A DNA stretch of 15,251 nucleotides from Flavobacterium psychrophilum. GTDB taxonomy: Bacteria; Bacteroidota; Bacteroidia; Flavobacteriales; Flavobacteriaceae. The notes under the pieces were generated by a model. It had not been told where the DNA came from. It ran no database searches and saw nothing but the letters and a program-made list of their open reading frames with translations. The DNA lies in contig CAMDGJ010000046.1 of NCBI GenBank assembly GCA_945897545.1, positions 1 through 15,251 on the forward strand. The letters run 5' to 3'. Position numbers and translations under genes: made by a program. This document shows, one piece after another, positions 1 through 14,510 of this stretch (position 1 is the first letter of the stretch; each line of letters starts with the position of its first letter).

Positions 1-1821
1 GTATTGTTCGTTATTTTCGGTGATTGATTTAATTTCTTCCTGGTCAAACCAAAACCTAAAACCACTTTTGAAAAGAAATAAAGCTTGTGAAAAAGCCATA
101 TTAATATCTACATTGTGTTGGTATTTGATGCCTTCTAATTCAAAACAAAGAAATCTTCTGCTTCCTGTACTATCGTTTAAGAACTGTGCTGTGTTGACAC
201 TTCCAGCAAAGGATGCGCGTCTTGGCATTGTTTCGTTGTTGTGTCCGTATGCTTTTCTCATTCTGATTTGGGTTTTTGTGATGATTTCTTTTAATGATCC
301 AATTTCAGAACGGTTTAGGTTTTCTAATTCGTCCAAGTTGATTAACATACATTCCGCCAGTTGTACTAAAGTATCTTTATTGTTTGGGTTTATGGTTCCG
401 GAAAATAAATACTCTTTCAATTGTTTTGGAACAAGTTTCTCCACCCAAGTTGTTTTTCCTAATCCTTGTCTGCCACTGAACACAATAACAGTGTGATTGA
501 TTACTTTATCATCAAGAACACAACCGACCATAGCTACTAACCATTTTTTGAAACATTGCTGCCAAAGGTCCTGTTTTGTTGTTGTGATTGTATTGGCTAA
601 TTCGGTAATATAATCGGTCTTTTCATCATAGGTTGGCAAATTGAAAAAGTAATCTTCAAACGGATTGAACAGTTCACAAAAATCAGAATACAGCAAGTTT
701 CTTAATGAAGATAAATTGGTTTTAATTCGACCTTTTAGACATTCTCGAAGCATTGAATTTTCGATAAAATCATTCATCACATTCCATTTCTTTTTACCAA
801 AATATTGGAACTCTAACTTGCCAGAAACGATATTATGACGAAATACATATCTTGATGATAAAAACAGTTCTAAACGGTCTATTTGCGTTGGTTTTGGTTT
901 GTCTTCGTCGTCGTCTTCAGTAGTATCTGTTATTGAAAAGTTCGCTGCTTTTTTTGGTTTATTAGGCTGTTCAAATTTCTCATTTTTACCAAACTCGTGA
1001 ATGTTTCCATAGGCACTGTTTACTGCTTGTGTTACTTCCTTTTCATCATAGCCAAAATCGGTTAGAATATATCCTAGAGCTTCCTGTAATGCAATACCTT
1101 TGCGGTTTAGGTTACACGCAAGTTGGTGTACGAATACGTTGCGACTACCATTCACGAATTGCACTTTTTTTTCGGTGAAATTTACGCAATGGTTGTAAAT
1201 AGCATCGTAATCTAAAATAGGTTCAGGTTTTTTGGCTTTAGGTTCTGGCTGTGTTTCAAGTAAAGGCATCTCGACTGCGCTCGATGTGACAAAGGTTGAA
1301 GCGTTTTCGTTTAGGTATAAATTTTCATCCCAGGAATAAAAGCATAACCTCGTTAAATCTTTGCCTGATTTGTCTATTTCTAACTTTAAAATATTCTCAT
1401 AATGAGCTTGAACCTTTAGGAACGTTTCTTTGTGTTCGGTTTTTGGTGTGTCTATTTTGACTAGAATTTTTAAACCATTTCCAGAAGGACTTATAAAACT
1501 TGCATAGGTAAACTCACTTTGTGCAGCTATACTTTTTGATTTTTGTAAATCGGTTGTACTTAATTTGTCAATATCTAAGATTATAAACTTTGAATATTCT
1601 GTTAGGAATTCTAATTTACGACCACCAACAAATTTACCTGAAGGTGTAAATGCTGGAAGTGATTTTTTGGCTTTGTTGTATGCTTCCTCTTTCTTTTCAG
1701 CCAATGATTTACGCAAGTAAATTATGCCGGGTTTGTACTTTCCTGTTTTGATTTCTTCTAAAATTGTTGGAATTGTTTTGTGTTCCACCACTTCGTTGAA
1801 ATTCTTGAATATTGTTACCAT
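1..1821 (-). CDS. VirE-type primase/helicase of a mobile element (3' end beyond window)
   Basis: The frame is open for 607 codons from ATG at 1821 to the left edge, so the C-terminus is missing. The N-terminal third (residues about 40-180, with FIILDID near residue 80) looks like the BT4734/VirE_N primase-like domain. It is followed by a PriCT-like helical segment (about 230-300) and then a VirE superfamily P-loop ATPase: Walker A GRQGLGKT near 450, Walker B LINLDE near 490, sensor GSVN, and a GSRRF arginine motif near 555. Such proteins are replication primase-helicases carried by Bacteroidota integrative and mobilisable elements; the role here is inferred from the family. The start overlaps the stop of the preceding 48-codon ORF (ATGGTAA), suggesting translational coupling. 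A GC-richer palindrome-like segment at 1267-1290 sits in frame in the linker between the first two domains. Confidence 0.88.
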   Translation of the reverse strand, partial: MVTIFKNFNEVVEHKTIPTILEEIKTGKYKPGIIYLRKSLAEKKEEAYNKAKKSLPAFTPSGKFVGGRKLEFLTEYSKFIILDIDKLSTTDLQKSKSIAAQSEFTYASFISPSGNGLKILVKIDTPKTEHKETFLKVQAHYENILKLEIDKSGKDLTRLCFYSWDENLYLNENASTFVTSSAVEMPLLETQPEPKAKKPEPILDYDAIYNHCVNFTEKKVQFVNGSRNVFVHQLACNLNRKGIALQEALGYILTDFGYDEKEVTQAVNSAYGNIHEFGKNEKFEQPNKPKKAANFSITDTTEDDDEDKPKPTQIDRLELFLSSRYVFRHNIVSGKLEFQYFGKKKWNVMNDFIENSMLRECLKGRIKTNLSSLRNLLYSDFCELFNPFEDYFFNLPTYDEKTDYITELANTITTTKQDLWQQCFKKWLVAMVGCVLDDKVINHTVIVFSGRQGLGKTTWVEKLVPKQLKEYLFSGTINPNNKDTLVQLAECMLINLDELENLNRSEIGSLKEIITKTQIRMRKAYGHNNETMPRRASFAGSVNTAQFLNDSTGSRRFLCFELEGIKYQHNVDINMAFSQALFLFKSGFRFWFDQEEIKSITENNEQY

Positions 1822-1961
1822 TGTTTAAAGTTGATAGTTGTTTGGAGGCAGTTGTTGGTTCTCGTTTTTGTGAGTTTTGCAATCGCAAAACTATCTCGCG
1901 TGATTTTATTTTTTTGGAGCTCGATGATTTTCAATTCACAAGTTCCGTTGCAGCTGCTCAT
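1815..1961 (-). CDS. 48-residue mini-ORF coupled to HTH gene and primase
   Basis: A short ORF starting ATG at 1961 (MSSCNGTCELKII...) ends with TAA at 1815. Its start lies 2 nt beyond the TAG of the helix-turn-helix gene, and its stop overlaps the ATG of the primase gene (ATGGTAA), so three genes would be read in one tightly coupled chain. An AAGGACG stretch just upstream could serve as a ribosome site. The product is basic and has a CNGTC pair of cysteines near the N-terminus. I recognise no family. An 8-bp-arm palindrome (1873-1892) lies inside it. It may be a real accessory peptide or only a translated leader that keeps ribosomes moving into the primase gene. Confidence 0.45.
   Translation of the reverse strand: MSSCNGTCELKIIELQKNKITRDSFAIAKLTKTRTNNCLQTTINFKQW
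1873..1892. repeat. Perfect inverted repeat, 8-bp arms
   Basis: AGTTTTGC, a 4-nt AATC centre and GCAAAACT form a perfect hairpin. It lies within the 48-codon ORF and about 50 nt before the primase start, where it could affect translation of the primase mRNA or be a dispersed palindrome. Confidence 0.5.
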
Positions 1962-1962
1962 A

Positions 1963-2244
1963 CTATCGTCCTTTAAATGATTTGTTGTAATGCTCTTGTA
2001 ATAGCTTTTCAACATCAGAAAGTTTGTAGTAGATTTTGTTTCCCACTTGACTGAATGAAATTTTGCCTTCGTCTCTCCAGGTTTGAGCTGTACGTTTTGA
2101 AATTTTCATTAGTAATAGGAATTCTTGATTGTCTAAAAAGGTTTCCTTCTTTGGGTCTGCCTTGATAGAAATTTGAGATTGAATAGTGTCTAATTTTGTC
2201 ATTAGATCTGAGAACTGGTCTTTTGTGAAGATAATTGCATCCAT
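1963..2244 (-). CDS. Excisionase/MerR-like helix-turn-helix DNA-binding protein
   Basis: A 93-residue protein if started at ATG 2244. A TTG 30 nt upstream is in frame but falls inside a likely -7 box (minus-strand TCCATTTG, 2272-2279), so ATG is preferred. Residues about 36-85 carry the signature of HTH_17/MerR-type excisionase domains: LDNQEFLLLMKISKRTAQTW is the recognition region, followed by DEGKISFSQVGNKIYYKLSD with the wing tyrosines. In Bacteroidota mobile elements these small proteins sit next to the primase and act as excision factors or regulators; that role is inferred. The gene follows a strong terminator-like hairpin and is directly coupled to the mini-ORF and primase gene downstream. 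Confidence 0.82.
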   Translation of the reverse strand: MDAIIFTKDQFSDLMTKLDTIQSQISIKADPKKETFLDNQEFLLLMKISKRTAQTWRDEGKISFSQVGNKIYYKLSDVEKLLQEHYNKSFKGR

Positions 2245-2292
2245 TTTTAAAAGTTTTAAATTGTTATGGTGCAAATGGACGAAATCAAAAAA

Positions 2293-2325
2293 AGTCCGAT
2301 TAGACTTATTTGGTCTTATCGGACT
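2293..2325 (-). terminator. Rho-independent terminator for the split gene
   Basis: Two 13-nt arms (AGTCCGATTAGAC at 2293-2305 and GTCTTATCGGACT at 2313-2325) pair with one mismatch around a 7-nt loop. Read on the minus strand the stem is followed by seven T residues, the form expected for a terminator of the split gene (stop at 2389) before the HTH gene starts. A third copy of ATCGGACT overlaps the stop codon at 2389, so an operator role for this motif is also possible. Confidence 0.75.
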
Positions 2326-2388
2326 AAAAAGTTTGTTAGCCCTTATAGATGTTGAAAAGTTGAAATGTTAATTTTAGAAAAAATCGGA

Positions 2389-3275
2389 CTATAGTTTTAT
2401 TTTCCAATCATTATTTGGGTTCTTGTCAGTTCGAGTTGGCGATAAATACGTTTGAATTGTAAGCATTGAAAGTTCATTTCCATTTTCGCCTAAATAATTA
2501 TCACAAATAAATTTTGCAATTTCTTTTATCTTATACTCAATGTAAGGTTTCCCATTTGGCTTTACCTCATACATCATTTGTTTGTAAGCATCCGTTAAAA
2601 TATTAATTGGACCATTCAAACGGATTTTTAATGTTGGCTTTTTCTCTAAAGCTATTTTATTTTTCTCTTCAGCTTGTTCCTTCTCTAATTGACATTTTAA
2701 GATTTTTTCATTTTGGATTTGTTTCAATAAAGCTTTGCATTGTTTTTTGTAATCCAATAGTTTGTTGTTGATAAAATATATTCTGATTGCTTATACTCAC
2801 ATATTTCTTCGTTCAAATAAAGGATTTTATCTGGATAATTAGTTAGAGTAGCGATGTGTTTTTTAACCTCTGAAAACGAAAAATATCTTTCTTCACTTTC
2901 TGCGTTTATTAGTCTTTTTGGAGTTTTTGCAACTGGCTCTTTTACTCTCGAAGATTGCAGCTCTGTTCGTTTTTTCTCGATTAAGATGTACAATTTATTG
3001 TATCTACTCATTGCCGTTTTGGAGCTGAAAAAAGCTTCATTATTGGCTAAAAGTTTTTCTAGTTTACAAATCCATACTTCTGGGTTCTTCACCAGGTTGA
3101 ATTGATAATCGATAAATGCAGGAAAATGAGATTGTTTGAGTTCTAGAATTTTTGCAATTAAGGCATTGCAATAGTTTTGAATGTTGATTTTGTCTTCGAC
3201 AATAATATCAAATAAAGGATTTTTGGCTTGTGCCTGTGGCACTGCCAATAATTCTACAAACTCTGCGGTTTGCAT
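2389..3275 (-). pseudogene. Split or frameshifted mobile-element protein of unknown function (possibly RteC-like)
   Basis: Two minus-strand frames overlap: an upstream frame from ATG 3275 (preceded by AAAGGA) to TGA at 2724-2726, and a downstream frame, open from about 2790, that runs to TAG at 2389. Joined by a one-base shift they give 295 residues. The downstream frame has only a TTG as possible start (2757), and its reading before that (IYFINNKLLDYK) looks like ordinary protein, so a single base lost near 2780-2784 in an original GAAATA would explain the break. Alternatively, A AAA AAC at 2748-2742 is in the correct phase for programmed -1 frameshifting into the second frame, also giving 295 residues. 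The helical, lysine-rich sequence and context recall RteC-type regulators, but I could not confirm a family. The C-terminal part has a conserved-looking segment (TIQTYLSPTRTDKNPN). Confidence 0.6.
2742..2748 (-). other. A AAA AAC slippery heptamer in the frame overlap
   Basis: Read on the minus strand, the codons ...ACA AAA AAC... of the upstream frame contain the canonical X XXY YYZ heptamer in zero-frame phase. A -1 slip here enters the downstream frame (next codons CAA TGC AAA). No strong stem-loop or pseudoknot is obvious just 3' of it, so function is uncertain. Confidence 0.45.
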
Positions 3276-3449
3276 ATTTTGATCCTTTGAATTCAAATTG
3301 TAGTATGTCTTTTTTGTTATTCATTTACTTAAAAATTGTAATTAAAAGCGGTTTAAAATTTGATGTTTTCTTGTTGCTGTTTGGCTTGTAAAGAGCAATC
3401 ATCTTTTTTTCGATTTGTTTGCTTTAAAAATTACTAGATTTCTATAATG

Positions 3450-3457
3450 CAAATGTA
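3450..3457 (-). promoter_or_regulatory. Candidate -7 box for the split gene
   Basis: Minus-strand TACATTTG matches the Bacteroidota -7 consensus TAnnTTTG exactly. It follows directly after the terminator of the Fic transcript, a sensible place for a new promoter. The -33 element is weak or absent. Confidence 0.4.
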
Positions 3458-3467
3458 GAAAATAAAA

Positions 3468-3489
3468 AAAATCCTTGTTAAAGGATTTT
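3468..3489 (-). terminator. Terminator of the Fic transcript
   Basis: Nine-base perfect arms (AAAATCCTT and AAGGATTTT) surround a 4-nt loop. On the minus strand the stem runs into eight T residues. It lies about 125 nt beyond the Fic stop codon. Confidence 0.75.
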
Positions 3490-3613
3490 AATTGAAGTTA
3501 TTAACAAAGTTCTATCTGTTTGATAATCTGCTATTTATTTTAAAAATATCACAAACAGCTACCGTTTACTCGTTTGAGGTTACTCTATTTTAATTTTTTA
3601 ATTTTAGTTGGAA

Positions 3614-4702
3614 TTACTGTTTTAGAATTTCTAATAATCTGTAATTAATGTATATTTTTTCTTTGCCAACTGTTTCACTTTTTAGAAAGCCTTTTTCTTC
3701 TAAAGCTATCAGATAATTTCCAATAGTTTTTAATGATGCTAGACCTTCTGCTTCTAATTGTTGTCGTTTTGTATATGGTAATCGGAATAAGGCTTCTACC
3801 AAATCTTTTGAATATACTTTTGGCAATTTTTCTTGAATTTCAACTGCCATTGTATTCATTAATTCTTCAATTGCTGTGATTTGTTTTCTGCCTTTTAGCG
3901 CTGTTTCTTCCACCATATCTAACATATACATTATCCAATCTTCCCAGTTACCCTCTTCGGTTACTTTTCGTAAATTGTTGTAATAGGCCGCTTTGTTGTC
4001 GATGATGTAATTACTCATATACAACGCTGGTAAGTCTAATAGGCCTGCCAATTTTAAATACAATAATAAAATGATACGTCCGGTTCTTCCATTTCCATCA
4101 AAAAACGGATGTATGGCTTCAAACTGATAATGAATAATTGCCATTTTTACTAATGGATCTATTTCGTCTTCTGCGTGAATGAAGTCTTCTAGGTTTTTTA
4201 ATTTTTCTCGTATGGTGTTTTCTCCTTCTGGTGGTGTATAAATTACTGTTCCTGTAGCTGGATTTTTTAATTGTGTTCCTGGTGCGTTTCTGATTGAAGC
4301 TGTATTTTCTTTAATGATTTGTGCTATTTTGATAAACAAATTGGTCGTTAAGAAAGGTCGTTTTTCGATTTCTTGAAAGCCAAACCATAAAGCGTCTTTG
4401 TAATGCATTACTTCTTTAGTCGCTGGATTGTCGTATTTTTTTTCGGCTATGGAAGCCATAAACAATTCGTCTTGGGTTGTAATGATGTTTTCTATTGCAG
4501 AACTGGCTTGTGCTTCTTGTAAATTGATGGTGTCAATAAACAGTGTTGGGTTTGGCAAATTGGTTATCGCTCCTTTTAGTTCGGATAAAGCTCTACTGGA
4601 AGTAATTAGTTTTTTTAAAATTACTTTAGTTTCTAAATCGGTATTAGGTGGTAGTAACGGTAATTCGTTATACGGTTTTTCCGGGTTATAATTTGCTGCC
4701 AT
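3614..4702 (-). CDS. Fic-family protein AMPylase with self-inhibitory motif and C-terminal winged helix
   Basis: A 362-residue protein from ATG 4702; the upstream in-frame TTG at 4726 overlaps a TAAAATTG box and is less likely. Residues 198-209 are the complete catalytic motif HPFFDGNGRTGR, with the base His198, the anion-binding loop and the second arginine that binds ATP. S67-S-A-I-E71-N72 fits the (S/T)xxxE(G/N) inhibitory helix of class II Fic proteins, in which the glutamate blocks productive ATP binding. The N-terminus (PYNELPLLPP) is of the Fic_N type, and residues about 280-360 look like a winged helix (YTKRQQLEAEGLASLKTIGN). Family members transfer AMP to hydroxyl groups of target proteins; the target is unknown. 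The gene sits between split gene and integrase, has its own repeat-laden upstream region and terminator, and may be autoregulated. A toxin-like or stabilising cargo role is inference. Confidence 0.92.
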   Translation of the reverse strand: MAANYNPEKPYNELPLLPPNTDLETKVILKKLITSSRALSELKGAITNLPNPTLFIDTINLQEAQASSAIENIITTQDELFMASIAEKKYDNPATKEVMHYKDALWFGFQEIEKRPFLTTNLFIKIAQIIKENTASIRNAPGTQLKNPATGTVIYTPPEGENTIREKLKNLEDFIHAEDEIDPLVKMAIIHYQFEAIHPFFDGNGRTGRIILLLYLKLAGLLDLPALYMSNYIIDNKAAYYNNLRKVTEEGNWEDWIMYMLDMVEETALKGRKQITAIEELMNTMAVEIQEKLPKVYSKDLVEALFRLPYTKRQQLEAEGLASLKTIGNYLIALEEKGFLKSETVGKEKIYINYRLLEILKQ

Positions 4703-4737
4703 AGTCGATGTATTTATGAAAGTCAATTTTAGGATTG

Positions 4738-4886
4738 TTTACCTTCGTTTTGTTTTCGAGAGTAAAAATAGTAAAAAATTACCTTCGAAATGATTTTCGA
4801 GAGTAAAAAAATGAAAAAATTACCTTCGTAATTGATTTTAAAAGTAGAATTTACTAAAATTTACCTTCGTTGTTTTCTAAAAAATG
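4738..4886. repeat. Array of about 41-bp dyad repeats upstream of fic
   Basis: TTACCTTCG occurs at 4739-4747, 4779-4787, 4820-4828 and 4861-4869, periods of 40-41 bp (close to four helix turns). Between copies lies TTTTCGAGAGTAAAA (4753-4767 and 4794-4808, a decayed copy near 4836-4849). Each unit is an imperfect dyad, because the reverse complement of the second motif (TTACTCTCGAAAA) resembles TTACCTTCGAAA. The last copy begins just before the integrase stop. This is a likely operator array, perhaps for the winged helix of the Fic protein. TACCTTCG also resembles a plus-strand -7 box, so promoters antisense to the integrase gene are an alternative. Confidence 0.7.
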
Positions 4887-6094
4887 TAACTGTCAACTGC
4901 TTTGTCTAATTCTTCGCTGATGATTTTGGCATATATCTGGGTTGTGCTAATGTCTGTGTGGTCCATTAATTTTGAAACGTGCTCAATTCTCATTCCATTA
5001 TTTAACGCATTTGTTGCAAAACTGTGTCGCGATAAATGGAAGGAAAGTGGAAACGGAAGTTTCAACATTTTACCCATTCGGTTGAGTTGGAAATTTGCAG
5101 AATGATTTTCTCTTTGTGAAATGAAATAACGTATTTCTTCACTCTTGTTGTATGATTTTTTATCTGTAATAATTGGGAAAATATAATCATCTGGTTGTGC
5201 ATCTTCTTTGATGTATTTATTCAAAATATCAATCGCCACTTTACCAATTTTAAACTGGTGTAATCTTCCTGTTTTACGGATTACTTTTTTTATTCTTTGC
5301 TCTTCGCTATTGTAATTGGTGTATTGCAGCTCGATAACATCGCTAAATCTTAATCCTCCGGCATAAATTGAGAAAAGGAATAAATCACGCCATAAATCCG
5401 CTTTCTTTCCTTCTTTGAGGTCTAAATTGGTTAGTTTTTCGATTTGGTCTTTGTTTAGGAATACTCTTTTCTCGGTATCTTTTTTTAATGTCAGTTTGTT
5501 GAATGGATACATATATTCTGGAATGATGTCTTCTTTTATAGCTTCCTTGAACATTATCGCCAAGATCATTATTGAATAGCGTTGTGTCGTTGCTCCGTTT
5601 TTTAGAATATTTCCCATATGAGCCATATAGTCCTTTAAAACCGAAACAGTAATGTCATCAAAATAAACATCTTTGCTGCCTACATAATTTTCAAATTTCT
5701 TTGTGTAAAGCATATAATTTTTATAAGTTCCAAACGAAACGCTGCCTTTTATTTTTTCACATCGAGCATAAGCATATTGAAAAAAGTTTGGCACTTCTTT
5801 TCCCTTGATGGCTTCTTTTAGTTTTTTGATGGAAACGGTTTTTATCTTTCTTTCCATATCGGCAACCTGACCTTCAGCATCTGCAATTTTTTGAGATAAT
5901 GCAGCGTTCATCCTTGCACTATTTGGATGGTTCTTTTTTACTTTCTGCTTTACTTCATCCCACTCGTTCTCTTTGAGCTTCACTCCAGCAGTGATAAATT
6001 TCGTTTTTCTATCTTTTATAATTCGAATGTACAAAGGGCTGTGTCCGGTTTGGTCTGCCTGGTGTGTTCTTAAAATTAGTTTAATTGATGCCAT
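4877..6094 (-). CDS. Tyrosine recombinase (integrase) of the element
   Basis: A complete 405-residue site-specific recombinase. Residues 1-80 form the Arm-DNA-binding domain usual in Bacteroidota element integrases (KLILRTHQADQTGHSPLYIRI), and about 100-200 the SAM-like core-binding domain. The catalytic domain contains R249 (GGLRFSD), a lysine around 274-277, H353xxR356 (FHLSRHSFAT), H379 (LMDHTDI) and the nucleophile Y388 (TTQIYAKI), so all catalytic residues are present and the enzyme should be active. It would integrate and excise the element by strand exchange between att sites. The gene is the outermost one on this side, reading into the element, which places an element end probably within 6.1-6.3 kb. 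The start ATG at 6094 gives the full arm domain. Confidence 0.95.
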   Translation of the reverse strand: MASIKLILRTHQADQTGHSPLYIRIIKDRKTKFITAGVKLKENEWDEVKQKVKKNHPNSARMNAALSQKIADAEGQVADMERKIKTVSIKKLKEAIKGKEVPNFFQYAYARCEKIKGSVSFGTYKNYMLYTKKFENYVGSKDVYFDDITVSVLKDYMAHMGNILKNGATTQRYSIMILAIMFKEAIKEDIIPEYMYPFNKLTLKKDTEKRVFLNKDQIEKLTNLDLKEGKKADLWRDLFLFSIYAGGLRFSDVIELQYTNYNSEEQRIKKVIRKTGRLHQFKIGKVAIDILNKYIKEDAQPDDYIFPIITDKKSYNKSEEIRYFISQRENHSANFQLNRMGKMLKLPFPLSFHLSRHSFATNALNNGMRIEHVSKLMDHTDISTTQIYAKIISEELDKAVDSYIF

Positions 6095-6113
6095 AGTGTT
6101 AGGAAATTAGAAA

Positions 6114-6218
6114 TGTTGTACTATATTTGTAAAGCAATGCAAACGAGTGAAAGTATTGTAAATACTGGGTTTTCAATTGGGTGCATCGTGATACGAAGGT
6201 ACAACATTGGGTACAACA
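6114..6218. repeat. GTACAACA motif repeated around the integrase promoter
   Basis: GGTACAACA occurs as direct copies at 6199-6207 and 6210-6218, 11 bp apart (one helix turn), and its reverse complement TGTTGTAC at 6114-6121. The position just upstream of the integrase start suggests regulator or recombinase-arm binding sites. Confidence 0.5.
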
Positions 6219-6223
6219 AAACA
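6193..6223 (-). promoter_or_regulatory. Candidate integrase promoter
   Basis: On the minus strand, CTTG is followed after 20 nt by TACCTTCG (plus positions 6193-6200), one base from the Bacteroidota -7 consensus TAnnTTTG at the expected spacing. The two GTACAACA copies lie between the boxes, so a protein binding there would block the promoter. Confidence 0.45.
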
Positions 6224-6330
6224 AGTATTTCATTGCTTTTTTATGCTTAAAATTGCATTGTCAAATTTAATAAAGTCAATGAATACAACACTTTAAGTGC
6301 AATTTGGAACTGGCGGAAATAAAATGAGGA

Positions 6331-6458
6331 TAACAGCGGTTTGCCGCAATTGGGGCATTTTGACGAATCGGAAAGTTAGTTTTGTATTTTAAGTTTGGTT
6401 TTTAATCGATACATTTGGCTAACCTAATCCACAACTGTCGGCAAGCCAACGGGCGTTA
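6331..6458 (+). repeat. attC-like recombination site, copy 1
   Basis: The 128-bp site runs from TAAC to GTTA. Its ends pair as a long bulged hairpin: GGTTTGCCG then CAATTGGGGCATT (6338-6359) is complementary to 6426-6447 with only a few mismatches and two single extra bases. The outer TAAC/GTTA pair is separated from this stem by unequal spacers (AGC against AACGGGC). Outer boxes, unpaired spacer, inner stem with extrahelical bases and variable loop are the features of integron attC sites. The last part (CCAACGGGCGTTA) recurs in copy 2. The full GTTRRRY core is not met beyond GTTA, so it is attC-like rather than classical. The loop contains TACATTTG (6410-6417), a possible promoter box for the gene that follows. 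Confidence 0.7.
6410..6417 (+). promoter_or_regulatory. Candidate -7 box for the cassette gene
   Basis: TACATTTG fits TAnnTTTG and lies 63 nt before the cassette ATG, inside the loop of the attC-like site. No TTG at 17-23 nt spacing was found (nearest are 12 and 25 nt away), so support is modest. Confidence 0.35.
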
Positions 6459-7128
6459 GCAGCAACCAAAAAAACCAAACATGAATATGCCAATATTAAT
6501 TGTATTTGTACTCATAATAGCTTTAGTATTGTTATTTATTATTAGCCTAATTGTTATGATAACTGGAAAAGTTAAACAGAATAAAAAAGTTCTAAGAATT
6601 GGTTTTAGACTTTTTCTAATTCCAATTTTAGTTTTCAGTTCGGTACTAATTTATAATCTAGCATTGGAAAAGTTTAGTGTAAAACCAACCAAAACAGACT
6701 TAGTTGGTAATTATATATTGACAAGTTCAAGTACTTCCAAATTTGGAGATGCAAATTTACGTTTATATGAAAATGGTGACTTTGAGAAATCTTTTATTTC
6801 AAATCACGGCTTATGCGAAAAAGGAAAATATAGTTTATACGATGACGAAGTTTGGTTTCGATGTGATAACCATTCGTCAGTAGCGAAAATAGATAGAGGT
6901 TTTAGAGATTTTAAAATTAAGTTTATTATTGGGAATAATCCGAATAGCGACGAAAATATAATATTTGAAAAAGTAGAAGACTAAAAAATATGGTGGACTA
7001 CTAACAGCTAGAGTTTCGTCAAATTGGTGTTTTAAAGCTAAATTAAAAGGTGATTTAATATATTTGACTTGAGTCTTTTACGAAAAGCTTGGGCGTGAAT
7101 TCCCCAACTTCTTGAAGCCAACGGGACG
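6456..7128 (+). mobile_element. Integron-like one-gene cassette
   Basis: If recombination occurs between G and TT of the terminal GTTA, as in integrons, the mobile unit is 673 bp: a 25-bp leader, one ORF, and its own attC-like site. No integron integrase is visible; the nearby recombinase belongs to the Arm-DNA-binding element type and has no attC-specific insertion that I can see. The unit may have been inserted in trans or represent a non-integron repeat-bounded cassette. Confidence 0.6.
6481..6984 (+). CDS. Cassette-borne membrane protein with lipocalin-like C-terminal domain, function unknown
   Basis: A 167-residue protein. Residues 4-29 and about 38-62 are strongly hydrophobic and probably form two membrane helices joined by a short basic loop (GKVKQNKKVLR). 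The rest (about 70-167) looks like a small beta-rich domain: LVGNYIL near 74-80, LRLYENGDFEKSF near 93-105, GKYSLYDDEVWF near 115-126, a pattern seen in lipocalin-like 'copper resistance/YARHG-like' small domains but not assignable to one. Cys112 and Cys128 could form a disulfide if this part is outside the cytoplasm. The ATG lies 22 nt after GTTA of the first attC-like site and the stop 17 nt before TAAC of the second, the tight packing of integron cassettes. Base composition is very AT-rich. Confidence 0.75.
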   Translation: MNMPILIVFVLIIALVLLFIISLIVMITGKVKQNKKVLRIGFRLFLIPILVFSSVLIYNLALEKFSVKPTKTDLVGNYILTSSSTSKFGDANLRLYENGDFEKSFISNHGLCEKGKYSLYDDEVWFRCDNHSSVAKIDRGFRDFKIKFIIGNNPNSDENIIFEKVED

Positions 7129-7131
7129 TTA
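7002..7131 (+). repeat. attC-like recombination site, copy 2
   Basis: This 130-bp site starts TAACAGC and ends AAGCCAACGGGACGTTA, sharing both ends with copy 1 (the right end differs by one inserted A). The inner segments CAAATTGGTGTTTT and CAATTGGGGCATTTT also align. The 5' stretch 7012-7033 pairs with the 3' stretch 7098-7119 at roughly 14 of 22 positions, so the fold is kept though less well than in copy 1. It starts 17 nt after the stop of the cassette gene. The loop holds TATATTTG (7059-7066), another promoter-like box pointing towards gmk. Confidence 0.65.
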
Positions 7132-7166
7132 TAATTCGTGGCTAAATTAAAAATAATTAGAGGATG

Positions 7167-7191
7167 AGATTTCTTCGTGCCTCGCAATGAT
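7167..7191. repeat. REP-like element just before gmk
   Basis: GAGATTTCTTCG followed by TGCCTCGCAATGA resembles, from memory, the widespread intergenic repeat read on the other strand as TCATTGCGAGGCACGAAG. It ends 6 nt before the gmk ATG and encodes the spurious N-terminal extension seen when gmk is started at GTG 7177. Confidence 0.4.
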
Positions 7192-7197
7192 TTTAAA

Positions 7198-7770
7198 ATG
7201 AAAAAAGGAAAATTAATAGTTTTTTCGGCGCCATCAGGATCTGGGAAAACAACCATAGTTAGGCATTTATTAGGAAAAGAAGACTTGAATTTAGAGTTTT
7301 CTATTTCGGCAGCAACGCGTGAAGCTCGTGGCGAAGAAGTGAACGGAAAGGATTATTACTTTATGTCCTTAGAGGAATTTAAAAAGCACATAAAAAACGA
7401 AGATTTTGTAGAATGGGAAGAAGTCTATCGCGATAATTTTTATGGAACTTTAAAAAGCGAAGTGGAGCGCATTTGGGCCAAAGGAAAAAACGTGATTTTT
7501 GATATCGACGTTTCTGGTGGACTGCGAATCAAGCATAAATTCCCTGAGGAAACCTTAGCTGTTTTCGTAAAACCACCCAGTGTTGACGAACTCAAAAGAA
7601 GACTCAAAGAACGCTGTACTGAAAGTGATGATAAAATCAATATGCGCATTGCAAAAGCTTCGGTTGAACTGGCGACAGCTCCACAATTTGATAAAATCAT
7701 CAAGAATTATGATTTAGATACAGCCAAAGAAGATGCGTATCAATTAGTCAAGGACTTTGTGAAAAAATAA
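7198..7770 (+). CDS. gmk: Guanylate kinase
   Basis: A 190-residue cytoplasmic enzyme that phosphorylates GMP to GDP with ATP, an essential step in guanine nucleotide supply. The P-loop FSAPSGSGKTT is at residues 8-18. The GMP-binding region SAATREARGEEVNGKDYYF follows at about 38-56, FVEW and YGT are in place, and the lid arginines occur in LKRRLKERC. Length is typical. ATG 7198 is chosen because an upstream in-frame GTG (7177) lies in a REP-like repeat and only adds PRNDFK-like residues not expected in the family. nadD follows 110 bp downstream on the same strand. In flavobacteria a yicC-type gene often precedes gmk; here the cassette and the mobile element are found instead. Confidence 0.96.
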   Translation: MKKGKLIVFSAPSGSGKTTIVRHLLGKEDLNLEFSISAATREARGEEVNGKDYYFMSLEEFKKHIKNEDFVEWEEVYRDNFYGTLKSEVERIWAKGKNVIFDIDVSGGLRIKHKFPEETLAVFVKPPSVDELKRRLKERCTESDDKINMRIAKASVELATAPQFDKIIKNYDLDTAKEDAYQLVKDFVKK

Positions 7771-7778
7771 AATCAGTA

Positions 7779-7872
7779 CACAAAGATTCACAAAGAAAAA
7801 TACAAAGACAGCTGAAAATTTCTATAGGTGCTTTGAGAATCTTTGTGAAAACTTTGAGAATCTTTGTGAAAA
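7779..7872 (+). repeat. CACAAAG hairpin with duplicated right arm between gmk and nadD
   Basis: CACAAAGATTCACAAAG (7779-7795) pairs with CTTTGAGAATCTTTGTG at 7831-7847 with one mismatch. The right arm is the first part of a 21-bp unit repeated exactly in tandem (7831-7851 and 7852-7872), so two alternative hairpins are possible just before the nadD start. Confidence 0.65.
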
Positions 7873-7880
7873 AAAATAGT

Positions 7881-8492
7881 ATGAAAATTGGACTTTATTT
7901 CGGAACATTCAACCCCATACATAGTGGGCATTTGATTATTGCTAATCATATGGCAGAATATTCTGGATTGGATCAAATTTGGATGGTCGTAACTCCACAT
8001 AATCCTTTGAAAAATAAAGATACATTGCTAGACGATTATCAAAGACTGCGATTGGTTTTCCTTGCCACCGAGGATTATCCAAAGATCAAACCTTCGGATA
8101 TTGAATTCAAGTTGGCGCAGCCCAATTACACGGTAAATACCTTAGCACATTTACAAGAAAAATATGCTGAATATGCTTTTTCGTTGATTATGGGCGAAGA
8201 CAATTTAAAGTCCTTACACAAATGGAAAAACTATGATGAGATTTTACAAAATCACGAAATTTATGTGTACCCACGAATTTCTGAAGAAAAAGACACTAGC
8301 CTAAACGACCATCTGACGAAGCTAAATTCCGAGTTCAAAAACAATACGAATATTCATATTATTGATGCTCCAATTGTAGAAATTTCATCGACATTTATTC
8401 GCAAAAACATCAAAAACAAAAAGAATGTTCAGCCGCTTTTACCTTCAAAAGTTTGGGAATATATTGACCACAATAACTTATACAAAAAGTAG
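7881..8492 (+). CDS. nadD: Nicotinate-nucleotide adenylyltransferase
   Basis: A 203-residue cytoplasmic nucleotidyltransferase that joins nicotinate mononucleotide and ATP to give deamido-NAD, the penultimate step of NAD synthesis. The alpha/beta-phosphodiesterase-type motif GTFNPIHSGH is at residues 8-17 (second copy of the HxGH family signature) and ISSTFIR at 168-174 near the C-terminus, both characteristic of NadD. VTPHNPLK follows at about 51-58. An in-frame ATG at 7833 would add 16 residues encoded entirely by the tandem CTTTGTGAAAA repeat, so ATG 7881 is used. The gene probably shares a transcript with gmk through the hairpin-containing spacer. Confidence 0.95.
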   Translation: MKIGLYFGTFNPIHSGHLIIANHMAEYSGLDQIWMVVTPHNPLKNKDTLLDDYQRLRLVFLATEDYPKIKPSDIEFKLAQPNYTVNTLAHLQEKYAEYAFSLIMGEDNLKSLHKWKNYDEILQNHEIYVYPRISEEKDTSLNDHLTKLNSEFKNNTNIHIIDAPIVEISSTFIRKNIKNKKNVQPLLPSKVWEYIDHNNLYKK

Positions 8493-8515
8493 TATAATAA
8501 ATACTTTTGAAAAAT

Positions 8516-8541
8516 TATTTATCACAAGTTTGTGATAAATA
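8516..8541. promoter_or_regulatory. Perfect 26-bp palindrome, candidate operator
   Basis: TATTTATCACAA, GT, TTGTGATAAATA: 12-bp arms with no mismatch. It lies 24 nt after the nadD stop and about 26 nt before a TAATTTTG -7 box (8567-8574) of the next gene. No T tract follows it, so an operator or dispersed palindrome is favoured over a terminator. Confidence 0.55.
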
Positions 8542-8566
8542 GATTTCGTTACTAACATATTCAACC

Positions 8567-8574
8567 TAATTTTG
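8567..8574 (+). promoter_or_regulatory. Candidate -7 box of the DJ-1/PfpI gene
   Basis: TAATTTTG matches TAnnTTTG and lies 14 nt before the GTG start at 8589. The -33 region overlaps the right flank of the palindrome at 8516-8541, which would suit repression or activation from that site. Confidence 0.5.
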
Positions 8575-8588
8575 TAGAAAGCAAATAA

Positions 8589-9359
8589 GTGAAGAAAAAA
8601 CTTGAACTTTTAATCATTACAGCAATAACGTTAAGTTGCACAACTGCCATTGCACAAAAACAAAATAAAAAAGATATGAAAAAAGTATTATTTGTTGTAA
8701 CCAGTCACGATAAATTGGGCGACACAGGGGAGAAAACAGGATTTTGGACAGAGGAATTAGCAGCGCCTTACTATGCGTTATCAGACAAAGGTATTGAAAT
8801 TGATATTGCAACACCGCTTGGCGGTCAACCACCAGTTGACCCAAAAAGTGAGGATTCATCGGCAGAGACGGAAGACACTAAGAGATTTGATAACGATACA
8901 GTTTTATTGGAAAAACTAAAAAACCCGAAAAAATTATCAGAAGTTAGCCAAGCAAATTATGATGCTGTTTTCTATCCGGGTGGTCACGGTCCTTTATGGG
9001 ATTTAGCTGAAGACACAAATTCTGCCGCTTTGATTGCATCTTTTTACACGAATAACAAACCTGTTAGTTTTGTTTGTCATGCACCTGCTGCTCTCAAAAA
9101 TGTAAAAATTAATGGAGAATTTCTTGTGAAAGGGAAAAACGTCACTGGTTTTTCAAACACCGAAGAAGAAGCTGTAGGTTTAACTAATATTGTTCCTTTT
9201 TTATTAGAAGATGTACTCCAGGACAATGGTGCAACATATTCAAAAGTGGGCGATTGGCAGCCTTATGCTGTTGAGGATGGTCTCTTGATAACCGGACAAA
9301 ATCCAGCTTCATCTAAACTAGTTGCAGAAAAATTATTACATCAAATAAATACAAAATAA
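8589..9359 (+). CDS. Secreted DJ-1/PfpI-family protein (glyoxalase III/deglycase type)
   Basis: A 256-residue protein starting at GTG 8589. Residues 1-22 are a signal peptide (KKKLELLIITAITL, cleavage near AIA|Q), so the mature protein is probably periplasmic or exported; the cysteine at 17 is in a poor lipobox. The mature part is a class I glutamine amidotransferase-like fold of the DJ-1/PfpI superfamily. TEELAAPYY (near 57) holds the conserved glutamate, YPGGHGPLWDL (near 130) the oxyanion loop, and CHAPAAL at Cys163-His164 the nucleophile elbow. The pattern is closest to Hsp31/HchA-like and yeast-type glyoxalase III proteins that detoxify methylglyoxal; the actual substrate is inferred. 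ATG 8676 (MKKVLFVV) would give a cytoplasmic form. The gene has its own promoter and is followed by a terminator. Confidence 0.88.
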   Translation: MKKKLELLIITAITLSCTTAIAQKQNKKDMKKVLFVVTSHDKLGDTGEKTGFWTEELAAPYYALSDKGIEIDIATPLGGQPPVDPKSEDSSAETEDTKRFDNDTVLLEKLKNPKKLSEVSQANYDAVFYPGGHGPLWDLAEDTNSAALIASFYTNNKPVSFVCHAPAALKNVKINGEFLVKGKNVTGFSNTEEEAVGLTNIVPFLLEDVLQDNGATYSKVGDWQPYAVEDGLLITGQNPASSKLVAEKLLHQINTK

Positions 9360-9380
9360 TTATTAATTTGATCAAAATAA

Positions 9381-9415
9381 AAAGGCGTTCCTAAACTACC
9401 TGTAAGAACGCCTTT
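9381..9415 (+). terminator. Terminator after the DJ-1/PfpI gene
   Basis: Perfect 10-bp arms AAAGGCGTTC (9381-9390) and GAACGCCTTT (9406-9415) surround a 15-nt loop, 21 nt after the stop codon. The longer T tract is on the minus strand, so it may work in both directions. The following stretch to 9637 is very AT-rich with no ORF and no clear promoter box. Confidence 0.75.
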
Positions 9416-9637
9416 CCAAAAAATACTAAAACAAACTAACTAATTCAAAACATTTATTAATCTATAAAAATGAATTAACAAAGTACTAACGTATAATAGA
9501 TTTTAATATTGTAGCTAAAATATTTTTTATCAATATTTTTTTTCTTTTGGATTATTGCTATTTTTTAATTCACATTCAATTATTTATTAATTTGTCAATA
9601 AATTTTTAAGTGCTTTTGATTTAATTTAATAAAAAAA

Positions 9638-10633
9638 ATGACTGAAAATATAAAATTTGCAGTAATTGGAGGAGGAAGCTGGGCAACAGCTATTGCTAAA
9701 ATGTTGTGCGTGAATCAGAACGAAATTTGCTGGTATATGCGCAACGAATTTGCTATTGAACATTTACGGGTTCATCACCATAATCTTAATTACTTAAGTT
9801 CCGTTGAATTTGACACTAAAAAATTAAAGTTGACAAGCGATATCAATGAAGCGGTTGCTTATGCTGACTACATTATTTTTGCAATTCCCTCTGCATTTTT
9901 AGGTGCCGAATTAGAAAAATTGACGGTTTCTTTAAAAGATAAAGTTATTTTCTCAGCCATTAAAGGCATTGTTCCAGAAACGAGTTTGATTGTTGGCGAA
10001 CATTTCAATAAAATTTATGATATCCCTTTCGATAATATTGGAGTAATTACTGGTCCTTGCCACGCCGAAGAGGTGGCTTTGGAACGTTTATCTTACCTCA
10101 CTATAGCTTGTGGTGACGCTTCAAAAGCAAAAATAGTTGCCAAAAATTTGTCTAGTAATTACATTAAAACAAAAATTTCTGACGATATTATCGGCACGGA
10201 ATATGCCGCAATGCTTAAAAACATTTATGCCATTGCAGCAGGAATCGCCCACGGATTGGGTTATGGCGATAATTTTCAATCAGTCTTAATGAGCAACGGC
10301 ATTCGAGAAATGAAAAAATTCATTAGAAAAGTCCATAAAATGAAACGCAACATCAACGATTCAGCTTATTTAGGAGATTTATTGGTAACGGGTTATTCGG
10401 TTTTTTCTCGAAATAGAATGTTCGGCAATATGATTGGGAAAGGGTATACCGTAAAATCAGCAATGATGGAAATGAGTATGGTTGCCGAGGGCTATTATGC
10501 TAGCAAAAGTGCTTATAACCTGAACTTGGACTACGGTGCAGCTACGCCAATAATTGATGCGGTTTACAGTATTTTATATGACGGAAAAAGTGCTAAAAAA
10601 GTTTTTGAAAAATTGACAGAGAAGTTAGATTAA
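9638..10633 (+). CDS. gpsA: Glycerol-3-phosphate dehydrogenase [NAD(P)+]
   Basis: A 331-residue cytoplasmic enzyme that reduces dihydroxyacetone phosphate to sn-glycerol 3-phosphate, the backbone of phospholipids. The N-terminal Rossmann fold shows VIGGGSWATA at residues 9-18. VITGPCHAEEVA corresponds to the usual GPxxAxEV segment, and EYAAMLKNIYAIAAGIAHGLGYGDN carries the catalytic lysine. GDLLVTGYSVFSRNRMFG is the substrate-loop signature, with GY in place of the usual C(T/S). The ATG follows a run of A residues. It stands alone between a terminator-isolated gene and a convergent gene 19 bp downstream. Family and length agree well. Confidence 0.95.
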   Translation: MTENIKFAVIGGGSWATAIAKMLCVNQNEICWYMRNEFAIEHLRVHHHNLNYLSSVEFDTKKLKLTSDINEAVAYADYIIFAIPSAFLGAELEKLTVSLKDKVIFSAIKGIVPETSLIVGEHFNKIYDIPFDNIGVITGPCHAEEVALERLSYLTIACGDASKAKIVAKNLSSNYIKTKISDDIIGTEYAAMLKNIYAIAAGIAHGLGYGDNFQSVLMSNGIREMKKFIRKVHKMKRNINDSAYLGDLLVTGYSVFSRNRMFGNMIGKGYTVKSAMMEMSMVAEGYYASKSAYNLNLDYGAATPIIDAVYSILYDGKSAKKVFEKLTEKLD

Positions 10634-10651
10634 GTTTTTCTTTGTTTTCTT

Positions 10652-11059
10652 CTACCTCACAATAACGCCATCTACAAATAAAATAGGCACCTCCTCGACA
10701 TAATCTGGAGTAATGGAATTTGCCTTGAAAATAAATTTCCTGTCGTATAATTTATCATCCATAAAAAAAGTAACCATAAACTCGTTGTTGAGTACCAAAA
10801 CACTTTTCTCCATCATTTCAATTTTTACGATCGAAACGGCTGGAATTTCTAAATAAGCGTGACGCAACAGAGATGTTTTTTTCATTTCGCCATCTATTGT
10901 CCCAAAGGCTTTGGAAACGACCATAACGCTATCTAGTTTAAAATCGCTGTCGTTTACTAAATATGCATACCACACTTTTTCCATAAAATCGTCGCTCCAT
11001 TCTTGGACTGCGGCGAGGAAAACGTTTTCTACTATTGGAATAATGATGTCTTTTTTCAT
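10652..11059 (-). CDS. Conserved hypothetical protein
   Basis: A 135-residue protein from ATG 11059. An in-frame TTG at 11080 adds seven residues that come from the CACAAAG repeat and is rejected. It has no signal peptide or membrane segment. The sequence alternates short beta-like stretches (VWYAYLVND, VMVVSKAFGTIDG, VTFFMDDKLYDRKFIFKAN) with charged turns, and ends in ILFVDGVIVR. I recognise no family. It lies downstream of pheS on the same strand, separated by 82 bp containing a repeat, and converges on gpsA with a 18-bp gap lacking a hairpin. It could be co-transcribed with pheS. Confidence 0.7.
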   Translation of the reverse strand: MKKDIIIPIVENVFLAAVQEWSDDFMEKVWYAYLVNDSDFKLDSVMVVSKAFGTIDGEMKKTSLLRHAYLEIPAVSIVKIEMMEKSVLVLNNEFMVTFFMDDKLYDRKFIFKANSITPDYVEEVPILFVDGVIVR

Positions 11060-11070
11060 AAAATTGAAAC

Positions 11071-11102
11071 TTAACCACAAAGTTCACAAAGAAGGCACAA
11101 AG
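11071..11102. repeat. CACAAAG-type dispersed repeat
   Basis: TTAACCACAAAGTTCACAAA and then GAAGGCACAAAG form three CACAAAG words at about 10-11 nt spacing. The same family occurs at 7779-7872, 14080-14110 and, inverted, 14511-14576. Confidence 0.65.
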
Positions 11103-11141
11103 CGCTCCATGTTTTAAACTTAAATACTATAATATTGGAAA

Positions 11142-12161
11142 TTAAATACTCGATTTGAATTGCTCTAAGAAGCGAATGTCGTTTTCGTAGAACATTCTTA
11201 TATCACCAATTTGATACAACAACATTGCTATCCTTTCGATTCCCATTCCAAAGGCAAAACCGGTGTATTCTTCTGAGTTGATGTTGCAATTTTTCAAAAC
11301 ATTTGGGTCGACGATGCCGCAACCGCCAATTTCTAACCAACCGGTTCCCTTGGTAATTCTATAATCGGTTTCGGTTTTTAAACCCCAGTAAATATCTATT
11401 TCGGCACTAGGTTCCGTGAAAGGAAAATAAGACGGACGAAGACGTATTTTCGATTTCCCGAACATTTCTTTGGTGAAATACAAAAGCGTTTGTTTCAAAT
11501 CAGCAAAAGAAACATCCTTGTCAATATACAATCCTTCGACTTGGTGGAAAATACAATGCGAACGCGATGAAACAGCTTCATTACGGAAAACTCTACCCGG
11601 TGAAATCGTTCTGATAGGCGGTTTATTGTTCTCCATATAACGCACTTGCACGGATGAAGTGTGGGTGCGCAACAAAATATCGGGATTGGTCTGGATGAAA
11701 AAAGTGTCTTGCATATCGCGAGCCGGATGATATTCTGGCAGGTTTAAAGCAGTGAAATTATGCCAATCGTCCTCGATTTCTGGACCTTCGGAAACGTTGA
11801 AGCCTATAGTGGAGAAGATGTCTATGATTTGATTTTTGACCAATGATATCGGGTGACGAGAGCCAATAATTACAGGTTCGGCAGAGCGAGTTAAATCACC
11901 ATACAATCCGTTAATTTCGGCTGTGCTTTCTAAAGATTCCTGAATGGCTTTAACTTTTTCTTCGGCTGAAGATTTCAACAAATTAATTACCTGTCCAAAT
12001 TCCTTTTTTTGATCATTTGGCACGTTTTTAAATTCGCCAAATAAGTCTTTTAAAAGCCCTTTGCTCCCCAAAAATCTGATTCGAAATGCTTCAAGTTCTT
12101 CCTTATTTTGTGTCGAAAAAGCTTGTGCTTCACCAATATATTCTTTTATCTTATCTATCAT
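11142..12161 (-). CDS. pheS: Phenylalanyl-tRNA synthetase alpha subunit
   Basis: A 339-residue cytoplasmic subunit of the (alpha-beta)2 PheRS that charges tRNA-Phe. The N-terminal coiled coil (residues about 1-85, [20 protein letters not shown]...) binds tRNA. The class II catalytic core follows, with [21 protein letters not shown] (motif 2), [10 protein letters not shown], and [16 protein letters not shown] (motif 3). Length and motifs are standard. ATG 12161 is preceded by a good Bacteroidota promoter (12179-12214). pheT is not in the window, as is usual in this phylum, where the two subunits are often unlinked. Confidence 0.96.
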
Positions 12162-12181
12162 TTTTGTCTAATAATTGAGTG

Positions 12182-12212
12182 CAAATATAAGAAATTTTGT
12201 TGGTAGAGACAA
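12182..12212 (-). promoter_or_regulatory. pheS promoter
   Basis: Minus-strand TATATTTG (12182-12189) matches the -7 consensus, and TTG (12210-12212) lies 20 nt upstream, the expected spacing. The TTG is inside the palindrome at 12203-12230. The -7 box ends about 20 nt before the pheS ATG. Confidence 0.6.
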
Positions 12213-12230
12213 GTCGCGACTTGTCCGTAC
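12203..12230. repeat. GTAGAGAC-type palindromic repeat
   Basis: The central 18 bp (12208-12225) is a perfect palindrome, and the full 28 bp has 12 of 14 arm pairs. GTAGAGAC palindromes of this kind are, from memory, scattered in many bacterial genomes. Here it overlaps the -33 box of pheS and lies between pheS and the next upstream gene. Confidence 0.65.
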
Positions 12231-12243
12231 ACAACAAATAATA

Positions 12244-12600
12244 TTAATCAATAAGTTCCTTTTCAATAAAATAATTGACAATGGCTTCTTTCATCAAAAC
12301 CGATTGTTCTCCTGCTTTCAGTGCTGGCAACTCCTCTTTAACTTTATAATGTGGCCAACCTTCTTCATCGAAAAATTCGAATTCATAAAACCCATAAGGT
12401 TCCAATAATCGGCAAATAGCAATGTGCATTAGGTTCAATTTTTCGTCTTTTTCATACGTTTGATGCACTTTTCCTAGTTCCTGAACTCCAATTAAATAAA
12501 TAATGGCGTCTAAATCGAGGTCTTCGCCCTGTGAAAATTGATCAGAAAGCAGGCTAACGAGCTTTTCCCAGCGTTCTTTTAGTTGTATATCTCTTGACAT
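12244..12600 (-). CDS. Conserved hypothetical protein
   Basis: A 118-residue acidic protein, probably cytoplasmic, with no signal or membrane segment. The N-terminal half is helical (SRDIQLKERWEKLVSLLSDQ, DLDAIIYLIGVQELGK), and the centre has the striking run LEPYGFYEFEFFDEEGWPHY, rich in aromatic and acidic residues. I know no function, though proteins of this look and size appear conserved near pheS in Bacteroidota. The ATG abuts a large hairpin (12617-12664). A minus-strand TATATTTG box at 12685-12692 may be its promoter, giving a leader of about 80 nt that contains the hairpin. Confidence 0.75.
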   Translation of the reverse strand: MSRDIQLKERWEKLVSLLSDQFSQGEDLDLDAIIYLIGVQELGKVHQTYEKDEKLNLMHIAICRLLEPYGFYEFEFFDEEGWPHYKVKEELPALKAGEQSVLMKEAIVNYFIEKELID

Positions 12601-12616
12601 TTGATTGTAGATTGCA

Positions 12617-12664
12617 GATTTTAGATTTTAGATTGCGGATTTTTTTAATCTGAAATCTAAAATC
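12617..12664. repeat. Long hairpin repeat (GATTTTAGATT type)
   Basis: Arms 12617-12634 and 12647-12664 pair at 17 of 18 positions around a 12-nt loop (GCGGATTTTTTT). It lies between two divergent genes, so it is not a terminator for either; it would be in the leader of the 12600-12244 transcript. The TAGATT words suggest a dispersed intergenic repeat. Confidence 0.7.
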
Positions 12665-12698
12665 ATAATTATTAAATTATTCGTGCAAATATAAGAAG

Positions 12699-12726
12699 TT
12701 GAAAATAGAATATTCTGTTATATTTG
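12699..12726 (+). promoter_or_regulatory. cvpA promoter
   Basis: TTG at 12699-12701, a 17-nt spacer and TATATTTG at 12719-12726 fit the Bacteroidota consensus. The ATG follows 25 nt later. It overlaps the putative divergent promoter of the neighbouring gene. Confidence 0.6.
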
Positions 12727-12751
12727 TCTTTCGAAATTTAAAAATTATAAA

Positions 12752-13255: not shown

Positions 13256-13258
13256 TCA

Positions 13259-13316
13259 GTGTCTGGTTTTTAGTGATCAGTCCACGCAAACTGATCGCTG
13301 AATACTGACCACTAAC
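13259..13316. repeat. Inverted repeat between convergent cvpA and batE
   Basis: AGTGATCAGT (13272-13281) and ACTGATCGCT (13290-13299) pair with one mismatch around an 8-nt loop, and weaker pairing continues outwards. It fills the 66-bp gap between two convergent genes, so it may act as a bidirectional terminator even though no T tract is present. ACTGA-type words suggest a dispersed palindrome family. Confidence 0.55.
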
Positions 13317-13321
13317 TACTA

Positions 13322-14065: not shown

Positions 14066-14079
14066 AAAAAAAATTTAAA

Positions 14080-14110
14080 CACAAAGGGCACAAAGAAGAC
14101 ACAAAGTTCA
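14080..14110. repeat. CACAAAG repeat, left side of the GxxExxY gene
   Basis: Three CACAAAG words at 9-11 nt spacing. Positions 14086-14106 are an imperfect inverted copy (17 of 21) of 14520-14540 on the other side of the gene. Confidence 0.65.
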
Positions 14111-14114
14111 CTAT

Positions 14115-14495: not shown

Positions 14496-14510
14496 TTTGT
14501 TTTATAAAAA

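Follow-up and report, generated by a model that had tools for sequence, protein, structure and literature searches.

In the 15,251-bp stretch of Flavobacterium psychrophilum DNA analyzed here (contig CAMDGJ010000046.1, positions 1 to 15,251; hereafter, the window), a single open reading frame (ORF) lies between two attC-like sites at positions 6331 to 7131. We consider it very likely that this segment is a cassette belonging to a chromosomal system of Bacteroidota that is of the integron type and independent of the integron integrase IntI, and that it is an isolated, probably decayed copy located off-array. In other Bacteroidota genomes, sites of the same family form arrays that run in one direction and consist mostly of one-gene cassettes. 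These arrays are preceded by a tyrosine recombinase gene and an attI-like element. Judged from sequence, the system would function like an integron, though by the IntI criterion it falls outside that family. A first-pass annotation of the window, made from its letters alone, had suggested either an integron-like cassette or a new type of cassette system bounded by repeats. That proposal is borne out by the arrays, by the recombinase with its attI-like start, and by the finding that this recombinase is not IntI.

The window sites were detected with R1, a covariance model built from an alignment (A2) of 37 sites from other genomes and none from the window. Up to E = 10, R1 had exactly two matches in the whole window, sites 1 and 2 (Table 1), with E-values that are approximate because calibration was shortened. 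The first-pass annotation had described sites of 128 and 130 bp with TAACAGC starts, and its coordinates and ends were accurate: both sites start with TAACAGC and end with AAGCCAACGGG(A)CGTTA, and the ORF (6481 to 6984) lies 22 nt past site 1 and 17 nt short of site 2. By eye, site 1 is of a subtype shared with sites in loci L033, L055, and L061. A Pfam search of the ORF found no domain, and none of its 12 relatives had one (0/12). In locus L220, a 44%-identical relative is a regular array cassette whose ends match at 6 of 8 bases by eye.

A family of attC-like sites

The hallmarks of the site family are TAACAGC at one end, ACGTTA at the other, and a long stem of varying letters. The A2 sites were chosen by heuristics demanding complementary arms, with L098 and L025 dropped from 21 non-redundant pattern sites. 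Across the 37 sites, 92.0% of pairs were standard, a count inflated by this selection, compared with 77.1 ± 0.9% after shuffling (0 of 500) and 26 to 51% in slid controls. Twelve of 21 stem pairs were altered on both sides, and G.T pairs were nearly absent from the stems, save one conserved top-strand T.G in 33/37 sites. In bottom-strand folds of the L142 and L144 sites, TAAC and GTTA were paired, a four-base spacer was unpaired, and isolated stem bases remained unpaired, the same anatomy that is described for canonical attC in PMC2727003. The family thus has AAC/GTT outer boxes, an unpaired spacer, and structure kept over sequence, as attC sites do. The full attC consensus is RYYYAAC/GTTRRRY, which the family did not match as such.

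The motif TANNTTT[GA], the Bacteroidota −7 box, occurred in 19/37 sites versus 5.1 ± 1.9 in shuffled sequence. It was central, mostly 55 to 64 nt before the site end. A full promoter box was seen in only 3/37 sites. Going by the −7 element, every site may hold a promoter that serves the cassette following it.

Bacteroidota are considered a phylum in which integrons are rare. Here, sites of this one family were present in 84 of the 101 genomes from a single genus and in 92 of 247 genomes of the phylum, with counts covering up to 34 matches per genome in the former set and up to 14 in the latter. The gene-collecting system looks widespread in Bacteroidota. An exact-pattern scan of genome contigs, which yields no frequency, returned at least 120 stretches under titles that were mostly Bacteroidota, with some Kapaibacterium and Ignavibacteriaceae. 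A few pattern matches, such as those under Lachnospiraceae and Porticoccus, did not look like real sites, and R1 gave none in those genomes. One subtype (TAACAGCCGTTTGCCGCAATGGGGGCTGACGTGG...) was near-identical over its full length in Flavobacteriales, Chitinophagaceae, Cyclobacteriaceae, and a Kapaibacterium metagenome-assembled genome (L011, L018, L027, L044, L051, L114, and others), which suggests its recent spread. Seven R1 sites (E = 1e-15 to 6.5e-8; up to three per short contig) were also present in 4 of 10 viral-contig loci (L002, L003, L007, and L009); cassettes may ride on phages.

One-directional arrays of cassettes

Further site copies bracketing different ORFs, which the first-pass annotation had looked to other genomes for, were found as long one-strand arrays. 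As a control, the heuristic array finder was applied to reversed sequence equal in length to that scanned (276,887 bases), where it made 17 matches. In G088, a genome from the same genus as Flavobacterium sp. AS60, heuristics detected 248 sites on the plus strand and none on the minus strand of a single contig (3075979 to 3252610; 177 kb). R1 confirmed 216 sites in the first 160 kb, with one site split over two rows. Per cassette (n = 247), only the longest ORF was counted, with a minimum of 40 amino acids (aa): 215 ran along the array, 4 were opposed, and 28 cassettes had none. Median ORF-to-site spacings were 41 and 24 nt, in a slightly different measure from that used for the window.

The ends of array cassettes were complementary to each other. 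We compared the eight bases that follow GTTA with the eight that precede the next site's TAAC, the latter reverse-complemented. In ten array loci, at least 6/8 bases matched in 60 of 82 adjacent site pairs. The mean match was 5.70/8 over all 82 pairs and 6.62 over the 55 pairs with a gap below 900, compared with control means of 3.14 over 1034 cross pairs and 3.13 within the same site. In G088, cassette ends matched in 217/247 cases, against a cross mean of 3.07. Because the match fits the next site, with the same-site match at 3.13, the inverted ends are a property of the cassette and not of the site. Such ends would be expected if circle closure of the cassette completes the site. When read on the bottom strand, 67 of the 85 terminal mismatches would form G.T pairs, and 61 of these fall at a single position.

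Near-identical dispersed duplicates were frequent in G088: 57 pairs involved 52 cassettes, none of them adjacent, at a median of 77 cassettes apart. Among 307 cassette ORFs, 16 had a protein relative in another array. In a random draw of 20 from the 39 ORFs within length limits, two had any Pfam match, both below cutoff.

A tyrosine recombinase and an attI-like element precede the arrays

The tyrosine recombinase that precedes the arrays is ∼345 to 370 aa long, and sometimes ∼580 to 610 aa, with two or three copies of its N-terminal domain by eye. In 20 loci around the recombinase, picked for long contigs from 51 recombinase-positive genomes, every site (66/66) was downstream of the gene and on its strand, with none upstream. 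These sites were distributed over 18 loci; the other two loci were contigs ending early. In a first set of 14 genomes, the array was downstream in 9, and 3 contigs ended. Among the 101 genomes of the genus, some of them incomplete, the mean number of sites (best 34 matches per genome) was 15.6 with the recombinase (n = 51) versus 5.8 without it (n = 50; p = 3e-6). This architecture and association point to the recombinase as the enzyme that would act on these sites.

Between the recombinase and the first site, the start of a first cassette was identifiable in 24/25 loci (6 to 7 of 8 bases), and in 20 of those 24 it lay 92 to 106 nt past the end of the recombinase frame. A conserved attI-like element was aligned from 22 loci (A5). 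All copies end with TATANACNAGTT, just before which stands a 6-bp inverted repeat with covarying halves: 116 of 132 cells were paired versus 48% with shuffled partners. Within these elements, one short word is repeated as inverted pairs; the word varies by genome, and its copies change together.

The recombinase is Xer-like and lacks the IntI insertion

The first-pass annotation had suggested looking for IntI-like recombinases with the attC-specific insertion. A tyrosine recombinase does head the arrays, but the insertion does not appear in it. The distance between box I and box II was 91 to 92 residues in the new family (18/18), 133 in IntI (13/13), and 96 to 98 in Xer proteins (7/7), and the IntI-specific insertion is therefore not present. 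In a tree that drew on an ORF from 13 of 15 IntI loci, and for which the tree tool flagged long branches, the IntI clade (100/99) excluded the new proteins, which grouped at 41/90 and in 92% of 200 bootstrap trees. The IntI model TIGR02249 scored under its cutoff in 5/5 recombinases and above it in 0/16 genomes holding sites; it passed in 57 of 143 Gammaproteobacteria. In turn, R1 detected no sites at E ≤ 1e-4 in the same 143 Gammaproteobacteria. Six IntI loci, which may or may not carry attC arrays, likewise gave none when matches up to E = 1 were allowed.

The XerA-like recombinase model NF040815 scored above cutoff in 4/5 recombinases tested, with L155 below it (191.4 < 220). Some members carry the NCBI label "site-specific tyrosine recombinase/integron integrase", which is simply this model's generic name. 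The best Foldseek match of a predicted recombinase structure (predicted local distance difference test, 83; predicted template modeling score, 0.53) was 5hxy, and the nearest solved structures were XerA and IntI4. The N-terminal domain of ∼65 aa is possibly HARP-like by sequence: Pfam HARP (PF07443) matched the triple-repeat recombinase of L131 at 1.3e-4 and 21.9 bits, below the cutoff of 25; PF07443 matched 3 of 19 N-terminal domains at E ≤ 1; and the best PDB sequence match of a profile of these 19 domains was 4o66 (E = 0.0018).

Proposed mechanism

We propose that a cassette circle, or one strand thereof, folds at its own attC-like site. The outer stem would consist of TAAC/GTTA and a further ∼8 bases specific to the cassette. 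An unpaired spacer would separate it from an inner stem that is long and variable, and the folded substrate would most likely be the bottom strand. The Xer-like recombinase with its small N-terminal, possibly HARP-like domain would recombine this site at a putative G^TT crossover, with the attI-like site ∼100 nt downstream of its own gene as the partner; the N-terminal domain may have a role in this recombination. Cassettes would in this way accumulate in one orientation downstream of the recombinase gene. The window cassette would have reached its present locus, before gmk, through off-site insertion.

Genomic surroundings of the window cassette

Of 398 genomes sampled from the genus to which Flavobacterium sp. 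AS60 belongs, 393 matched the gmk-gpsA part of the window, the best at ∼80 to 82% DNA identity, which places the host in the genus Flavobacterium. In the relative L227, which has no cassette, 122 bp separate gmk from the upstream gene, presumably YicC-like. L228 and L229 have other DNA between the upstream gene and gmk, in L228 including a 167-codon frame; the place before gmk seems to accept insertions repeatedly.

Table 1. Features in and around the window cassette
Feature	Positions	Strand	Remarks
Site 1, attC-like	6331..6458	+	128 bp; R1 66.1 bits, E 6.4e-13
TACATTTG in site 1, candidate Bacteroidota −7 element (speculative)	6410..6417	+	
Inferred cassette	6456..7128	+	From TTA after the G of site 1 GTTA to the G of site 2 GTTA; inferred from array architecture
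Cassette ORF	6481..6984	+	167 aa, stop included; two N-terminal hydrophobic segments by eye
Site 2, attC-like, diverged	7002..7131	+	130 bp; R1 40.2 bits, E 3.1e-7
TATATTTG in site 2, candidate −7 element (speculative)	7059..7066	+	
Right-hand chromosomal junction before gmk	7132..7198	+	L227 homology resumes at 7133, two bases past site 2
Neighboring mobile-element tyrosine recombinase	4877..6094	−	Arm-DNA-bind_5 + Phage_int_SAM_5 + Phage_integrase

To the left, a mobile element (1 to 6094) carrying a VapE-like/BT4734-like primase-helicase, HTH_17, a SoFic-like Fic protein, and an Arm-DNA-bind_5 tyrosine recombinase ends ∼237 bp before site 1. We rejected this recombinase as the enzyme of the cassette system on the basis of its domain makeup and its position as an outlier on a very long tree branch. 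The first-pass annotation was thus right that no integron integrase lies near the cassette, the neighbor being an unrelated mobile-element enzyme, and no recombinase of the array-associated family was found within the window.

Other searches around the cassette gave little. The best match for a further cassette start left of site 1 was 5/8, at chance level, and Rfam had no matches at gathering score within the window. A plasmid collection searched for the window cassette gave three weak, unrelated matches, and viral contigs searched for the window ORF gave 17 pattern stretches and no relatives. Farther right, non-coding gaps contain a pair of imperfect inverted copies of 37 bp (81%), at 11079 to 11115 and 14507 to 14543; a related third copy is at 14071 to 14106.

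Discussion

Several observations weigh against assigning the window segment to this system, or against the system as proposed. Folded singly as DNA on both strands and compared with dinucleotide shuffles, the window sites gave z values of −0.36, 0.34, 0.59, and −0.06. The first-pass expectation that their stems would score above shuffled sequence thus failed for both sites on either strand, although three intact array sites elsewhere beat shuffles on both strands (z of −2.6 to −3.8 over six folds). The singly folded window sites are unremarkable; it is the held-out model R1 that gives the observation its weight. The own-terminus match of the window cassette was 3/8, equal to background. Only one of five genomic relatives of the window ORF sits between sites, the four others (31 to 53% identity) lying outside detectable sites, and the junction before gmk was clean in only one of three relatives examined, the other two having other DNA there. 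Across the loci of 21 genomes, no cassette body was held in common at 75% DNA identity. With regard to the recombinase, G015 of the first 14 genomes had its sites on the other side and strand, and G005 had no sites. Mere site presence was scarcely tied to the recombinase (46/51 genomes with it versus 38/50 without), and ten site-rich genomes lacking a close recombinase copy yielded a long distant copy in only two; in G097, which has such a distant copy, the array is downstream on the same strand. To these points is added the inflated pairing count of the A2 sites.

The alternative that survives best, though we judge it unlikely, is a chance assembly in which the neighboring mobile element joined two decayed sites that at no time enclosed a single mobile cassette. 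The 3/8 terminal match, the weakness of site 2, and the mobile-element recombinase 237 bp to the left would all fit such a history. It accounts poorly for an ORF spacing typical of cassettes (compare the G088 medians), for an ORF relative in the same layout in L220, and for the exact right junction. Far less probable is that the sites are dispersed palindromic repeats between genes, like repetitive extragenic palindromes or miniature inverted-repeat transposable elements, beside a recombinase with another job. The great number of copies, some of them nearly the same throughout the phylum, the many genomes with sites and no recombinase, and the existence of isolated copies such as the pair in this window are what one would expect of repeats; a single strand per array, intervals of mostly one ORF in one orientation, complementary termini that are specific to each cassette and fit the following site and not the same one, and arrays that begin at an attI-like element are not. 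Finally, an ordinary integron remnant, with canonical attC sites and an IntI elsewhere or lost, shares the general anatomy of AAC/GTT ends, an unpaired spacer, and a long stem, and has precedent in the canonical integrons that PMC9024848 reports for Salinibacter ruber and Chlorobi/Ignavibacteriae, but we rejected it as highly improbable given TIGR02249 (passing in 0/16 site-holding genomes, versus 57/143 Gammaproteobacteria), R1 (no sites in those Gammaproteobacteria or in the six IntI loci, which may carry attC arrays), the tree, and the distance between box I and box II.

A cassette of an IntI-independent Bacteroidota system therefore remains our preferred reading. We regard as evenly balanced the broader proposal that the Bacteroidota integron arose independently of IntI: a Xer-like recombinase would have gained a HARP-like domain, for binding or annealing structured DNA, in place of the IntI insertion to recognize folded hairpins, giving rise to a phylum-wide platform for gene capture and shuffling. 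Should the recombinase act in the proposed way, the IntI insertion would be dispensable for integron function, the origin of hairpin recognition would become testable by comparison, and a large pool of unknown genes would open to IntI-independent searches. We found no description of such a system in the open-access literature of PubMed Central, a scope that leaves out preprints and subscription papers; in PMC9024848, IntegronFinder 2.0 reports a complete integron in Bacteroidota only in Salinibacter ruber.

The closest known counterparts are the sedentary chromosomal integrons of the IntI type, such as the Vibrio cholerae superintegron. Common to both are a recombinase gene, an attI-like site, and a long array in which small, mostly unknown ORFs run in one direction, as well as AAC/GTT site ends, variable paired stems, an unpaired spacer, and dispersed duplicate cassettes. 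The V. cholerae array holds fewer than 200 cassettes, compared with ∼248 in G088. Own-terminus complementarity is likewise shared by the arrays, though not by the window cassette at 3/8; canonical R boxes extend to 9 to 11 complementary nt according to PMC2727003. Unlike IntI, the new recombinase has no IntI insertion, is placed outside the IntI clade, and carries an additional domain at its N terminus; its gene and array run in the same direction, and R1 misses IntI loci. In the "atypical" integrons of Treponema, as described in PMC3607928, the integrase gene is likewise transcribed toward attI, along the cassettes, but they carry IntI and the new system does not. The catalytic core is like that of XerA/XerC-like recombinases (NF040815; PDB 5hxy and 4a8e), from which the new family differs by its ∼65-aa N-terminal domain and the arrays of hairpin sites downstream. 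That domain in turn may resemble the HARP domain of SMARCAL1 (PF07443; PDB 4o66) in sequence, with a Pfam score below cutoff.
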